Source: Scatophagus argus (lineage: Eukaryota > Chordata > Actinopteri > Scatophagidae). Taken from it: a DNA stretch of 64,000 nucleotides. The notes under the pieces were generated by a model, which ran no database searches, was not told where the DNA came from, and was given only the letters and a program-made list of their open reading frames with translations. Shown here piece after piece: positions 36,839 through 54,400 of this stretch. The position numbers were made by a program, and so were the translations under genes. Where the stretch lies: contig NC_058501.1 of NCBI RefSeq assembly GCF_020382885.2, positions 18,906,001 through 18,970,000 of the forward strand, in the 5' to 3' direction. Numbering within the stretch: position 1 is the first letter of the stretch; each line of letters starts with the position of its first letter.

Positions 36839-38236
36839 TTAATGTCTCTGTTTGCTGGGGTCAATCTTCTCCAGGTGAACCAGGGGTTTGAGCTGCTCGG
36901 CAAAGCTGCGCATGTCCTCCGACACAGTGTCCTGGCCAGCAGGAGCCAGTACACTCAACTCCACAAGGTACGAAAGTGACAGACGCTCCGTGTTCTCTGT
37001 ATTCCCTGGTACCAGGATGCGCGACAGCTTGCTCACCACAATTTTCATAGCACCTTTGCGGAATATGTGTCCATTAGCAACAAACTCATGGTCCATGCGG
37101 AAACCCATCTCATTGAGGAACTCCGGCAAACTGTGAGAGGCTGCCACGTCGACACAGTTGCGCACCAGGGCATGCCGGCTCTTGTCTCCCACTTCAGGTT
37201 GGCCTAGGTAGCGGAGATGCCATGGAGATGTGGGATGGGAGAGAGCGCGTCGGGCACGCAGAATGAAAGGGTTTCCTTGTTGGCCTTTCAGAAGATAAAC
37301 TAGTTCATGATCTGTGAAGGTCTCGGGTTCCATATTGTCACACAGACCTCGGAGGCGATGCAAAAGGCTTTCCAGGGCCTGGTCTAACACACTGCCTGAT
37401 TAATAAAGGATAGAGAAGCAGATGTGTGCATATATATATAAACAATATGATGTGGTGTGATGACTGGGAGAGTGGAATGAATGTATTGTGCATGCAGAAA
37501 AATGTCATTTTAATGAATTCCTATTTGAATGGATACAGAATTGCTATACACAATTGTTCTGCTGCAATTTCAACAGAAATCTACAGACCCTTTGCGACTA
37601 ACAATCCTGTAGAAAATCCTACTTTTTCAAGGTTGTAGTATTATATTTTTGATGAAACTGTTTTAAAGAGCTGTTGAATCAAGTTCATGGTCAGACTGCA
37701 TGTTATGGTAATACTGAATTCCATTTTTATGTTGTGGGTTTCTAATATCTTGTAACCCCATTTCTACAGACTAAGGATTCTGGAAGGACTGTGAGACAGT
37801 GCATTTCAACACCTTGTCAAAAGATCAAATGAAGGAATGCTTTTAGGAAGAGCAGTGTTCACCCCACCACTAGAGTTACAGAGAATATATGCCAAAAAGT
37901 ACTACATGCTCTGGCTGATCACTGTGTCCTGCATACTGTGTGTGCACTTCTGGTTTCTGGTTTTCAGTGGCAGCAGAAACACTGTGTTTTGTCAATTTCT
38001 TACTGATTATATGATGATACAGAACACGATGTAGTTGTGATGTTATCATGTGATCACCGTTGGCATGTTTTCTTTGTATCACTATCCACTTAAAGTCAGT
38101 TAAAAGTCTGCCAAAATGTTTCACCTTCTTTCCTCAGCTGGGGATGTTTGTGACATATTTTACCTTGCAGCAGATATTCCATCATATTGATTGTGCCCCC
38201 GGTGACAGGCATCACTGTTACTGGTGGAGCTTCCAT
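36839..38236 (-). CDS. med18: Mediator of RNA polymerase II transcription subunit 18
   Basis: Coding exons are 38164-38236 and 36839-37395, giving 209 residues; human MED18 has 208. Exon 1 encodes MEAPPVTVMPVTGGTINMME and ends CAAG|GTAAAA; exon 2 opens after ATCAG with GCAGTGTGTTAGAC, restoring YLLQGSVLDQALESL. Further matches to vertebrate MED18 are HRLRGLCDNMEPETF, APAGQDTVSEDM and EQLKPLVHLEKIDP at the C terminus. An in-frame TGA lies three codons before the start. A TTTTAG acceptor at about 38251-38256 and a CAG|GTAATG donor at 38492 suggest an upstream non-coding 5' exon. MED18 forms the movable jaw of the Mediator head with MED20 and contacts RNA polymerase II and TBP in the nucleus. 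No truncation or frameshift is seen. Confidence 0.97.
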
Positions 38237-39374: not shown

Positions 39375-39760
39375 AATAATAATAACTTTATTCATATAGC
39401 ACCTTTCAAAAACGGGTTTCCAAAGTGCTGAACAATCATTAAAAATACACATACATACACATAATAGCCAGTCTGTAAAAGTGTGTTTTGTGATTTAAAA
39501 GAAGTCACTGACCTTGTAAGCCCCATCTCCTCCAAAGCCAAGGGGCTCTGACAGCAAAAGTCTTGTCCTTTTATTTTGACTTAGGAGTCAAAGCTGAGGT
39601 TTGAGTGAAATATAACACAGAGTTTTTGACTGGTGGACAGATGACGAAGACTGATTGGTGTTTGGGAATGTGGAGGGCTAAACAGCATAATTTCTGTTTT
39701 TGAATTGTTGAGTTGAAGAAAGTTTTGGGCCATCCAACAGTTTACATCACTGAGACAGTC
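39375..39760. mobile_element. Probable old interspersed repeat fragment
   Basis: ATAATAATAACTTTATTCAT is followed by ATAGCACCTTTCAAAAACGG and CAAAGTGCTGAACAATCATT, the wording of a common teleost repeat as I remember it. The rest of the block is diverged, so the boundaries are approximate. Confidence 0.5.
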
Positions 39761-40493
39761 GGTGGCACTTCTTTTTACATCAGTTAGCTTGACCTTCTTT
39801 AACCTTACTCATGATTTCATGACAAATTCAAAATCTGTTGCTTCCAGTCAGTTTTGTTTGAGTCAGCTGGGTTTCCGTTTAATTTCTATCATGACATCTC
39901 TGCTTTTCCTCCCCCTGTTCCTTTCCATTGCCTCATTCAAACTGATTCACCTCCAGTTTCTCTCCTTCCGCCCACCCCTGGATTTTTTTTTTGTTTCGTT
40001 TTGTGTTTTTTTACATAGTGATTTGCAAAACCCTCAGGCACATTACAGCCACCTACAGGAGCACAGTTTGTACCTATAGGGCAAGTCATGAAAGAAATAA
40101 TTTATAACATTTTCCTACTTAGCATGCTATTAAATACCTGTTTCAAGGTAAAAGTCCTGATTGCAAAATTTCCCTCTATTAAAGCCTATCTGTAGGCTAC
40201 CAAAGCCATATTCTCTCATACATATATATATAGATATATCTACATCTACATAGATATAGATCTAGATTATAGATCTAATTTTAATCTACAGCCAAACTTC
40301 TTTGCATGCGCAGCTTGTTAGCTTACACTGAGATGTGTCAAACATGTAACAAATTGGGCAAGTACTGTGCGGTCTTGTTGATGCAACTTGTTTTCAAACA
40401 GCGATAACTGATCCCTTAGAAGGCAAAATATGCTTTAAAAATATCAAAGTAAAAGTGATCTTTGTACTCATACCGTTGAAATATTGTGTATTT

Positions 40494-41231: not shown

Positions 41232-43102
41232 TTAATGAACACCTTCCATATATATTTCACTGTACACACAATCAGTGCAGGGCTTATCACAGTTTTCTGT
41301 CTTAGTGGGTCTGATGACAAGTGATGAATAAACCACGGCCGTCCCTTCCTCCTCCGCCTGCAGTAAAGAAGAAAGAAATGTCACCACCCGAACAAGACAA
41401 CGCACATGCTTGCTCACTGCCGCATGTTCAGTTGCATTTGGTTACCCCATCATCAGTATATAATGCTTACCCCGTCATTCAAGTCGCTGGAAAAAAGGCG
41501 CACAGGAAACGCTTCAAAAGGTAGAAACAGAAACAGAATCATCAGCCACACACAAACTTGCCTCACCCAGCGTCACATGTGAAGCTCTGTTTCAAGGCAG
41601 TGGGCCACAACGACCAACGAGAAATAAACAGGAAGTTTAATAAGACAAAGAGCTACCTGCTTGCAATGTTGATCTGAGATACAAACAAATTAAAAGTGCC
41701 ACAAAAACAAGACATGTGACCGCTGCTGACGTTCCGTAAAGAAGAATCGGATATTTGGGCCCTGTAGATGCACCTGTAACACCAAAAAACAAAAGAACTG
41801 CTAGTCTTTCTTATCCAGGTCATGAGCTTTTTAAAGAGAGATGAGGCGAAACACCCACCTGTTGTTTTGCTGAAAACATTCGACGGACTGCGAGTGCTGT
41901 CGGCTGTGCTGTATCCATCAAACATCTGTTTTCTGCTGCAGTTTAAAAACCTGTGTTGATCTACAGACACTGTCTTTGCGTCTGTCTCCACATCTGATGC
42001 GTTGTTTGATTTGATGTTACTGAATTTCGTGTCACACGTCACAACGCAAGAAACAGATGAATCCTCATGGTGATGTACTGTAAGACAACAAAAAGATTAT
42101 AAGTTTAAATTTAATTTTGACATAAATCATCGCATGTTTTCGTGTTATTTTCTCACCTGTAATTACACACAAGTTGATAGTAAGTAGCTTCTGTCCGTGT
42201 CCATCACATCCACTTGTCCAGCAGCTATATTTCCCAGCATCCTCTCTTTTGACATTTACTATGTGTACAGACTTGTTGGAATTCACAAAGTCAGATTCTG
42301 GTTTTTGGGCCGAGCTCCAGAGTGCAGTCGTGTTGCTTGTTTTAAAAGTCCACCATATGTTAGTCAGCCCACCCACACATGCATGAGTAAAATTGCTGCC
42401 TTCCTTAACGTACGATGTTTTAGTTTCTGTCGGAATTTCTGAAAAGAAAAGAAAATGTAGCATTTGCTTGACTAAAGCTTTGGCTTTGGCAAATGTATAG
42501 AAGTGGATACACAAGACGGTTGGGTACTTTATATATTCACTTATGAAATAAAATCGTTCTGACCTTGTTTCACACTGATGACTCTGTAGTCTTTATTCTG
42601 ACAACTGTCTTGAAAGCAGTTTTCACACCAGTAACGGCCTTCATCATCCTCCCTTAGATGATCAATGACCAAGGAGCCATTGTGCCAAACCTTTATTCTG
42701 GGATTTAAGGGTCGGTGATAGTATGGTAGCCCTTTCTTATCTTGAAAAAATATCCGGATTGAGCCACTACGTTCATCTTTCTTGTAAAACCATTTGAGGG
42801 AGTTTGAGTCACTTCTGTAAAGTCGACATGGTATCACGACTCGACATCCCAGTGAGAACTGAAGGTGATTTGTGGCTGCTAAAATACAAGTTTTCTGTTA
42901 TACACAGACAATAGCTTGAAAAGTGCAAAAAAAATTAATAATGTAAAGCCAGACAGCAGAAGCTTCCTAAAACTGTATTTTTACTACAGTGTAAAATAAG
43001 TGTTTTAGTCGGTTACTTACTGTTTCCTGAGGCAAAACAAGAGTTCCAGATCATCAGTAGCAAAGTAAAGCTTTTTTGCATTTTCATTCTTGAGGTAATC
43101 AT
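41232..43102 (-). CDS. ITIM-bearing two-domain Ig-superfamily receptor (family not identified)
   Basis: Seven exons are inferred: 43021-43102, 42564-42878, 42157-42438, 41859-42077, 41657-41773, 41471-41511 and 41232-41357; 393 residues. All junctions are GT-AG and exons 1-5 end in phase 1, as usual for Ig genes. Residues 1-27 form a signal peptide (FTLLLMIWNSCFASG). Domain 1 is V-like: cysteines, KWFYKK, and REDDEGRYWCENC. Domain 2 has THACVGG, NIWWTF and REDAGKYSCW. A Ser/Thr/Asn-rich stalk follows, then a membrane helix (TSAAVTCLVFVALLICLYL). The tail has VVYSSL at Tyr362, a fit to ITIM [SIVL]xYxx[ILV], and CVYSEI at Tyr384, one residue short of ITSM TxYxx[VI]. An inhibitory leukocyte receptor is inferred. 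CD300-like, DICP or other teleost receptor families are possible; the 41-base exon has a weak acceptor and is the least certain part. Confidence 0.8.
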
Positions 43103-44168
43103 GTCTGTGAAGAAATGCAGACAATAGTGAACACAAAGAAACACCCCCTCAATGCCACTGCTCTTCAAAACGCAGATCAGAGATTCTGCATCACATCAGC
43201 AGGTTTTTTACATGTAAAATGAAATGACATATCGGAAGTGGTCCCACAGCTTCTGCAGAGGAAATTTACACTGGGTACTGCTCACCCACTCTTCTTCTGA
43301 TTGCGTGACATTAATAACGCTTTTTGTAGCAGTTTGGATGTGCAACAGCAACATAGAGGTGTCAGACAGTTTACACTTTCCATACATCTGTGAGATAAGC
43401 TGTAAATTATCTGCGTGAAACAAATAAACAAAGAAAGAATTGTCATTGTGCTGTTAAAGTAGTTTACTCATCTGCCAAGCTTTGACTTTAACTAGTTCTT
43501 ATCTTATCTTAACCAGAGTGTCTTGCAGTGACTGACCTACTTCACTTCATAAAATGTATGCTGATAAGTTCACAGATGTTTTAGAGCAGACACTGATAGA
43601 ACAACAGCTGGAAAGAACAACAATGGAAAAGTTTACGTTAGTCACACTGAGCGCAACAAGCTTATTAACGTTTACAGAAGATTTTCACCCGCTTGCTTCC
43701 CTCTTTAAAGGTTAGATAATTCTGACTTCAGTCTTGAAGAAGTTTAACACGACAACCCGTTGTGGTTTGAGCTCAACAAAGGCACGCACGTTCGTCAGTA
43801 ACGAGTGTGATTTCTCACGTGAAGGCGCCAACAGTTGCGGTTTGCACTCAATGCTGTTTATGCATCATAATTAAGGCTGTTTTATACACCAATGAGCTCA
43901 CTTGTAAATCAGTTGAAAAGAACAAAAGCTTATACTTAAACGTCTGTTCGTACTCTTTCACTGGCGTGGATTTCATGTTCTTAATAATAAATAATTTCTA
44001 ATTTAATATCCCTCCCTGTTGTGGGACAGGCCTGACCGAGCAGATGCCCCGCCCACCGTCCGGTGATTACGTCACACCTATCTTTTTCTGCATATTACCG
44101 TTTGCCATCTTTTACCTTCTGTCATCTGGAAAGAGGCTTTCCTCCAGCGGGACTCAGACGTCGCCGGG
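43103..44168. other. Divergent intergenic region between the Ig receptor and the P450 gene
   Basis: About 1.07 kb separates two start codons that point away from each other, so it should contain both promoters, possibly shared. No TATA box at a convincing spacing was found. Short ORFs here have no family character. Confidence 0.6.
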
Positions 44169-49925
<5,757 letters not shown>

Positions 49926-51482: not shown

Positions 51483-54400
51483 TTAGATGAGTAGTGATGG
51501 GGTGGGTTTCTTGCCTGGCCAAGCTTCTTTGGCATACTTCTTTTTGCGTGGCTCGTTGTGGGTCTCTGGTAGGTAAGGGGCTGTGACAGGGGTGGGGTTG
51601 AGAGTGACAGGGGGCTGGGGAGCCTCTGGGGCAAGGTCCACCTCTGGTGCTGGATTGGGAAAGGGTAGAGGAAGTCCTCCCTGCATAGCAGCACCTCCTG
51701 GGGCCCCTGTTGGCTGGTTCTCATGACTGGTGGGAGGCAAGTCCCCATAGAGACCAGCGCTCAAGCTGTAGCCATGAATGCGTTTTGAAGCCAGGTCATC
51801 AAAACCCAGGGTGTTCTGACTTTCTGATCTACGTTTCTGCAGCAGGAATGACAGAATATTAAATTCACAAATCACACATTTTGCGCCTGACAACTGTGCA
51901 GGTCACACAGCTAACCCACTGAAAATTCTGCAAGGGTTGTATAACACCATATGAGTACACTACTTATTTTTGATTGAAACCAATCAGAACACAGATGCTC
52001 ATCAAAAGACGACAGGACAGGCCAACAGTTATTATTTTATTATAACGCTGTGACCAGACTGCCCAACACAGTAATACTTTGTAGCTGCTCAACTGCAACA
52101 TGCATCAAAATACAACTGAATCAGTTTTTAACTGACAAAAATCAAAGCTTACCTTGATGGGAATAACAGCAGTCTGCACCAGATTTCTAAAGCGTCCCAC
52201 AGAGGGGTCTATATCCTCTGTAAGTATTTAAAACAAAAGAGTTACTTCAGAGTGCATCTCAAAAGCAAATGACTTCAAATTTACAACAGGTCTATTTCAG
52301 CGTGAACGTTTCTCTGTGTGTTCCATAGCACTGCCTTCACTTTAGTTCATACCTGGGTTAATGATGGCGTCCTCCTCACTGAAGGTGACCCTGGAGTTCC
52401 TCCGTTTCCTCTTAGGCCTCTGGATTTCCAGGTTGCCCTCCTCAATCGTCAGTAGAGAGATGCGCTTGTTGTGAGCCGTGTTGAACTCTGTCAGGTTCTG
52501 GCAGGATGCAGACATGGGAAGAATAGTGTGTAATGTGGCTGCATTGATAAAGACATTTTTATGTTACAACATAACATCACACCAGACTGAGCAGAAAAAT
52601 AGCAGGTAGCTGCATAAAAATTGGGTAACTATAACGACTTGTTAACCGGTAAGGATAAACTGGTCTTTTAAACACTAGGGGGCAGATGTATAGATTATAC
52701 ATAATAACAGTTGTTCGGATGAAATGCTGTCAATTAAATTGCATCGTCTTCAATGCTATTCTTCTCTAGTCTAAAGATTGTTGGAGCAGGCATAAGTATC
52801 AATAAGCAAACAGATGTTTAACAGCATTTCTATATTTCTATATTCTCTTTTGGATAACTGTGGGAGTTGAAATTAAGATGAAATGAAGTTGAAATGCAAA
52901 CGTGTGCCCGTTTCCACAACGACTGAGATTTGTTGTTTATAAATCATGGAAAAAAAATGCCTATGCAGTTCTAGTTGTGAATCTGCACGTTTTAGAGTGC
53001 ACTGCAATCTATGAAGATAGATAGACAGATAGATAGATACTTTATTGATCCCGAGGGAAATTAAAGAACTAATTACAACAAAATGTTAAATATTACACTT
53101 CATAAACATATCTATAAAAATAACTAAAAAGGACAAAAAGACATTTCAAACATTGATGAGTCCAACAGCAGTCAACCTAAAACAGCAATTTCAGAATACA
53201 AAGGTGATAACTGAGACACAAGATACACCCATTTTCTCTTTTCTGTAGTTCACGTTCGAGGGCATTAGAATATTGTTATTATTAAAAACTAAATGTACCT
53301 CCAGCTCCGTCTCTTCCTCAGGAAGTCCAAGCAGTCCTTTTAGCTCCTCATCCTCTCCCGTTTTGCTGTCTCCTGTACCAGCGGTGCCTTGGGTTTGGGG
53401 TTTCTCTCTGATGGTGTAGGTCCGCGTTGAGGCCCCAAAAGATATTGTAGAGTCTATGGGAACCTGCTGAGGTTTGTGTGCCTCCAGACGAATGTGTCCA
53501 AGGAAAGTACCATGTGCTAAAACAATGATGATCAAATGAGGTTTGAATATGCTAGGACATGTTACTCACAGTTTTATAATGTTATGTCATAGTGGAATTG
53601 AATCAAACATGATTGACACCCAGTGACAAAAGATCTAACAATAATAGAATAACAATACTTTAAGATGGTCCCGTGAACCAGTCAAAGCATACATTTCTTC
53701 AGCGCCCGTGTCAACCCTTTCCAAACACTGATTCTAAATGTAAAATGAGTGTACAAGTATGATTCTGAATGATGTCTTACTGCTGTTGAGGTCTATGAGA
53801 AACACCCTTTTCAGGTGCTTGTGGTAGACCAGGGCAGCATGAACACGTGAGCATGACTGATGGTCGATGGTGAAGTCGCACCAGTCGGGGTTCCTCCCAA
53901 ACAGGTAGTACTTCTTCTCATCTATGATGAGTTTCTACAGACAGAAACAGTTTCAGTGAATCATGGCCATTAAAACAAAAACAAACTCTAAACGGTCAGC
54001 ACCGCCTCTGTGCCCCAGAGTCATAACTTAACAATGTTGCTTCCCAATGAAAAGCTTAAATCTCGGGGCTGATGCTGTTGTTGCACCGTTTGAAACCATG
54101 CAGCCATAGAAAATCCCATTTGTGCAGCACATCTGGGACAAAGTGGGCTGTCAGGCTCGTATCTGGTGCATTCAACTAACGTACCTCCCAAAACAGTAAG
54201 CATGCTCTTAAAGGACAATACATAACGTTAAGCTGATGGTAGGGCCCCCATGTTCAGTAGTAACTTCTTCAATCTTCCGGTTACCTCTATCAGTTTGTCT
54301 CCCTTCATCACGTCTAGATGGAGCCCCGCCGGCGGCTTGCCTGCCCTGGAAGAAAACAGTTTTGTGAACGTTTTAAAACGTATATATACAGTTCACACCC

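Follow-up and report, generated by a model that had tools for sequence, protein, structure and literature searches.

The window analysed here, the whole stretch of 64,000 nucleotides, contains a minus-strand gene at positions 41232–43102 that lies between MED18 and a CYP4B1-like P450 gene (Table 1). The gene comprises seven exons that join in phase to encode a 393-residue product, and re-derivation from the sequence returned the same span, exon number and product length as the initial annotation. The predicted product has the layout of a type I membrane protein: a signal peptide, a V-set domain, a second Ig domain, a stalk, an uncharged membrane helix, and a cytoplasmic tail carrying an immunoreceptor tyrosine-based inhibitory motif (ITIM). 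The left flank contains, besides MED18, a FOXO gene (Pfam forkhead, FOXO_KIX_bdg, and FOXO-TAD), and the right flank contains the P450 gene, a CABIT-domain gene (Pfam), and a frame at 53194–53565 that matches NIPP1/PPP1R8 (3.8e-20). By eye, we take the CABIT gene to be THEMIS2 and the FOXO gene to be FOXO6, place RPA2 and SMPDL3B immediately outside the window (L010), and take the gene order to agree with human 1p35.3.

Table 1. Coordinates of the receptor exons and flanking genes in the window, and of the exons of the L040 receptor gene as modelled.
Feature	Coordinates	Strand	Basis
Exon 1: start codon and signal peptide, 82 nt	43021..43102	-	gene model; signal peptide by eye
Exon 2: V-set domain, 315 nt	42564..42878	-	gene model, Pfam
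Exon 3: second Ig domain, 282 nt	42157..42438	-	gene model, Pfam
Exon 4: stalk, 219 nt	41859..42077	-	gene model
Exon 5: transmembrane exon, 117 nt	41657..41773	-	gene model
Exon 6: short first cytoplasmic exon, 41 nt	41471..41511	-	placed by phase; AAG acceptor
Exon 7: phase-0 cytoplasmic exon, 126 nt, with VVYSSL, CVYSEI, and TAA stop	41232..41357	-	gene model
MED18 coding frame, one flanking neighbour	36839..37399	-	Pfam Med18 5e-41
CYP4B1-like P450 gene, head to head with the receptor gene	44067..47562	+	two open frames, 44067-44345 and 47287-47562
L040 exons	3014-2757, 1736-1467, 1286-1218, 849-736, from 369	-	model without signal-peptide exon

The P450 neighbour named in the initial annotation is borne out by the frame at 47287–47562, which matches Pfam p450 (4e-13) and cytochrome P450 4B1 in the PDB (1.2e-14); the frame at 44067–44345 has no Pfam match and was assigned by eye. 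The start codons of the receptor gene and the CYP4B1-like gene are about 1.07 kb apart (43103–44168, head to head by eye), and the sequence CGGAAGTG between the two genes, at 43233–43240, presumably represents an ETS-like motif (by eye). About 1.4 kb past the 3′ end of the receptor gene, a minus-strand frame at 39581–39808 resembles a LINE reverse transcriptase by eye and has no Pfam match. Our literature search found no paper joining MED18 synteny with a teleost immunoglobulin receptor, and no title or abstract start among the matches listed names a receptor at the MED18–CYP4 locus. The passages of a perch study available here mention PPP1R8 and THEMIS2, contain neither med18 nor cyp4, and refer to immunoglobulin in one passage, on spleen (PMC12288802).

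All six introns of the receptor gene are GT–AG, with phases 1,1,1,1,1,0. Splice sites were scored with rough consensus weights and were ranked against the other GT and AG sites over 4 kb surrounding the gene. All six donors fall in the top 0.4–6.2% of GT sites, and four acceptors, those of exons 3, 4, 5, and 7, are within the best 4% for AG; the exon 6 acceptor (AAG) stands at 15.6%, and the exon 2 acceptor is weak, at 69.6%. A frame of 392 codons would be open by chance with a probability of about 4e-10, as calculated from the local stop frequency with the domain matches left aside. A codon-bias score, with four neighbouring frames as its training set, failed to tell the model frame from the other frames, and codon usage therefore gives the gene no support. 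The reading frame starts at M1 (43102), with M6 and M8 as alternative starts. A pyrimidine-rich, splice-acceptor-like stretch ending in CAG lies at 43105–43122, 2 nt 5′ of the first ATG, and because this site is directly upstream of the ATG, the gene may have a 5′ untranslated first exon. Polyadenylation-like hexamers starting at 41236, 41231, and 41227 overlap and follow the TAA stop (41234–41232).

The ectodomain has clear Ig character. Pfam reports Ig_3 (1.9e-12), V-set (1.7e-10), ig (4.6e-10), and I-set (1.2e-5), and NCBIfam reports no match. The V-set domain has cysteines at residues 39, 45, 112, 115, and 120 and none between residues 46 and 111; Cys45 and Cys112 fall in columns that are invariant across 14 aligned Ig domains, leaving residues 39, 115, and 120 as extra cysteines. 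The second Ig domain, which fits generic Ig models in Pfam and the PDB, has cysteines at 153 and 205, plus 210 and 223. Judged by position, Cys39 and Cys210 might bridge the two domains. The initial annotation had described a Ser/Thr/Asn stalk; the stalk is only moderately rich in Ser and Thr (24 of 78 residues), has five Asn and one Pro, and carries three cysteines (237, 241, and 273). The product contains six N-glycosylation sequons. Folded alone, the V exon gives a mean pLDDT of 47.8, a poor predicted fold.

PDB searches return generic relatives. The top entry for the whole protein is DSCAM (5.2e-6); among the best 60 of 1994 matches for the V exon, the top entry is the polymeric immunoglobulin receptor (pIgR; 2.7e-7 as a sum over its domains), with DSCAM and antibody light chains next; and among the best 60 of 125 matches for the second Ig domain, the top entry is carcinoembryonic antigen (3.5e-8 summed over repeats), none of whose domains taken singly exceeds 9.5 bits. 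As scored, the PDB matches are generic Ig and V-set similarity and provide no predicted family placement for the receptor.

The membrane helix (residues about 307–331) contains no charged residue and is followed by a tail of 62 residues with one strict ITIM, VVYSSL (360–365), and one near-ITIM, CVYSEI (382–387). When the tail was shuffled 100,000 times, 16.7% of the shuffled versions contained a strict ITIM and 10.2% contained two YxxI/V/L motifs; because shuffled tails so often yield the motif, the ITIM supports an inhibitory reading only jointly with the gene plan. That plan, recorded in the initial annotation from signal peptide to VVYSSL, is recovered in full by the gene model and Pfam: the product combines a signal peptide (by eye), extracellular Ig domains, a single helix, and a tail motif of the form [SIVL]xYxx[IVL], the features by which ITIM receptors are recognised. 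The two tail YxxL/I motifs are separated by 18 residues (L365 to Y384). ITAMs have YxxL pairs 6–12 apart, as given in the part of PMC3528668 consulted, and an ITAM reading of the tail was rejected on this spacing.

A search of the source genome with the whole protein (570.7 Mb, 48 contigs; 21 candidates scored after a loose first look) gave 13 matches, six of which are the receptor's own exons, the 41-nt exon 6 being too short to show. The other seven have E values from 0.013 to 0.25. Ranks one, three, and four (E 0.013, 0.02, and 0.039) are DSCAM-type adhesion frames by eye; rank two (L036) and the lowest-ranked match (L041) are Ig frames; L039 (G000:C19:2866991-2867380; E 0.18) is a V-type Ig frame that has two additional cysteines inside the canonical pair and represents another type of receptor; and L040 (E 0.183) is part of another ITIM receptor gene. 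Thus, among the 13 matches from the 21 scored candidates, the assembly holds no close paralogue (best non-self E 0.013), and the predicted receptor seems to be present only once, with no close relative elsewhere in its own genome. Since the search began with a loose first look, far-diverged relatives may exist in the same genome. Within the window, tblastn found no second copy (best E 0.26, own exons aside), and across 28 loci (25 from V-set hits and three window flanks) tblastn found no match to the receptor better than E 0.012.

The V-set loci of this genome include, by eye, Ig heavy, Ig light, T-cell receptor, and NITR-like V segments, among others. On C18 (22 Mb), C25, C27, C36, and C41, V-set frames score identically or almost so, are open for 338–386 residues, and are perhaps recent copies or unplaced duplicates. 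A viral capture or viral relative of the V exon was rejected after a pattern scan of viral contigs, in which seven stretches fit the pattern and none was confirmed; the V exon had no match among phages.

Comparison with NILT, CD300, NITR, SLAM, and G6f-like places the gene inside none of them. NITR, DICP, and LITR are clustered multigene families. LITR and other Fc-receptor-like proteins have Ig domains of the Fc-receptor type, and NITR V domains end in a J-like motif, F/WGxG; the NITR motif is absent from the 23 residues after Cys112, and NITR membership was rejected. SLAM-family receptors carry an ITSM, TxYxx[VI], which occurs nowhere in the 393-residue product, and SLAM membership was likewise rejected. 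An exon plan like that of the window receptor is common to many inhibitory receptors.

In gene structure, the receptor matches NILT, the novel immunoglobulin-like transcripts of salmonids and cyprinids. In the parts of the NILT source used here, two-domain NILT genes have the exon order SP/Ig1/Ig2/connecting peptide/TM/Cyt1/Cyt2, with all introns in phase 1 except the last, which is in phase 0 (PMC3022915), and the window receptor has the same exon order, intron phases, short Cyt1 exon, and last-exon ITIM. Specifically, the TM, Cyt1, and Cyt2 exons measure 117, 41, and 126 nt in the window receptor, compared with 117, 35, and 132 nt in zebrafish NILT1, and the single strict ITIM resembles zebrafish NILT1 and NILT2, with one each, and is unlike the six salmon NILT genes, with four or five each (PMC3022915, same parts). 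The same source describes salmon NILT V domains with an extra cysteine pair, CX3C or CX6-7C, and describes NILT as a clustered multigene family; the window receptor, with zero cysteines between residues 46 and 111, lacks the extra pair and, among the 13 genome matches from 21 scored candidates, has no close paralogue. NILT membership was rejected on the missing cysteine pair and the absent cluster, despite the equal exon plan. CD300 receptors, as described in part of PMC3031540, have a single V domain, a YWCR motif, and two disulphides. The window receptor has in common with CD300/pIgR-like receptors a V-set domain and a weak pIgR match in the PDB, and differs in having two Ig exons rather than one V domain and no second disulphide pair (PMC3031540); its YWC (110–112) sits at the second canonical cysteine, whereas YWCR of CD300 is in strand C. 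CD300 membership was rejected on the two Ig exons and the lack of an extra cysteine pair.

Membership as these families are defined is distinct from descent, and the receptor could be a derived NILT, CD300, or pIgR-like member whose V domain has given up its second disulphide and which has moved out of the multigene cluster, a possible though somewhat unlikely history. The NILT exon plan and phases in the window receptor are consistent with such a derivation, as is the position of pIgR as best PDB entry for the V exon. A two-sequence profile of the V domains of the receptor and L040 has pIgR domain 2 as its best single pIgR domain (19.7 bits); the summed E of 1.4e-14 from that profile was rejected as a sign of pIgR kinship because the single-domain E is just 0.0078. 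Against the derivation stand this modest value, the missing CX3C, CX6-7C, and CD300-type second pairs, the genome without a close paralogue, and the wide occurrence of the exon plan.

A second alternative is that the window receptor and L040 are distant sisters, remnants of an undescribed small teleost family. L040 lies on the minus strand of G000:C17 at about 1.0 Mb and comprises two Ig exons, a stalk, a membrane helix, and an ITIM tail with two ITIMs, VHYASL and VIYSSV. The two V domains share 32% identity over 82 residues (4e-9 as a single comparison). Exons for two Ig domains, a stalk, and a TM segment, together with an ITIM tail, are present in both genes, and the tails, VVYSSLVIRPTK and VIYSSVITRPAAK, are alike by eye. 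Overall similarity is nevertheless weak: L040 ranked below DSCAM-type frames in the whole-genome search (E 0.183), and among the 1054 ORFs of the fetched loci it was beaten by three DSCAM-type frames with the V query and by four frames with the whole-protein query. The genes also differ in chromosome, in ITIM number, and in the phase at which the last tail exon starts, 1 rather than 0 in an L040 model that is incomplete and could be missing a further tail exon. We consider a sister relationship unlikely.

The product could instead belong with adhesion or thrombocyte receptors such as G6f/G6b or CEACAM, and not with the immune receptors of leukocytes. Carcinoembryonic antigen is the best PDB entry for the second Ig domain, albeit with low single-domain scores, and the V domain ends in GRYWC, which we take to resemble human G6F. 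Fish thrombocytes use the Ig receptor G6f-like, a collagen receptor with four Ig domains, a YxN motif, and a tail ITAM in the parts of its description used here (PMC3528668); it shares with the window receptor an Ig ectodomain and a tyrosine-signalling tail, and the window receptor has instead two Ig domains, an ITIM, and no ITAM. Membership of G6f-like was rejected on the two Ig domains and the 18 residues between tail motifs, and no G6f-like locus was recognised among those of the 13 genome matches that were assigned. An adhesion or thrombocyte-type receptor thus seems quite improbable. That the gene is a pseudogene or a chance chain of exons, as the weak exon 2 acceptor, the AAG acceptor of exon 6, and the lack of a coding-bias signal would allow, is very improbable given seven of seven exons open and in phase, two Pfam-significant domains, and an intact signal peptide, helix, and tail.

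The predicted window receptor keeps a NILT-type exon plan, yet for every named family open to testing it lacks one or more of the defining features. The initial annotation could match the gene to no named receptor, and among NILT, CD300, NITR, SLAM, and G6f-like this still holds; among the families it had singled out, the CD300, NITR, and SLAM features are absent and pIgR offers only generic V-set similarity. We consider it probable that the gene is functional and present in a single copy, and that it encodes an inhibitory receptor of the immunoglobulin superfamily in blood or immune cells. Phases in register over seven exons, Pfam Ig domains, an uncharged helix, and the lack of a close paralogue argue for this reading; the chance rate of ITIMs, the weak exon 2 acceptor, the uninformative codon bias, the V-domain pLDDT of 47.8, and a genome search with just 21 scored candidates count against it. 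The narrower proposal, a teleost-specific single-copy inhibitory lineage outside NILT, CD300/pIgR, NITR, DICP, LITR, and SLAM that has been kept between MED18 and CYP4, is tentative and, in this full form, doubtful.

For an inhibitory receptor, the most likely mechanism would be ITIM-based inhibition through SHP-1 or SHP-2 after phosphorylation of Tyr362 by a Src kinase. The V domain would bind a ligand; the receptor would cluster with an activating receptor, allowing a Src kinase to phosphorylate Tyr362 and probably also Tyr384; and SHP-1 or SHP-2 would dock on the phosphorylated tail, dampening the signal. The uncharged helix would have no charge able to pair with an activating adaptor. We infer the ligand, the cell type, the phosphorylation, and the inhibition from the observed layout, and inhibitory function is, as in the initial annotation, a prediction from sequence only.

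Many described fish inhibitory receptors belong to large, variable clusters, and their ligands are hard to find. If the single-copy lineage is real, a conserved self ligand would be more likely than a polymorphic one, because the receptor is single copy and is not in a fast-changing cluster. A lone receptor gene at a fixed place could be compared across species and cleanly knocked out, which would make its ligand and cell type testable, and, if orthologues exist, it would provide a simple reference point for inhibitory signalling in fish blood cells.
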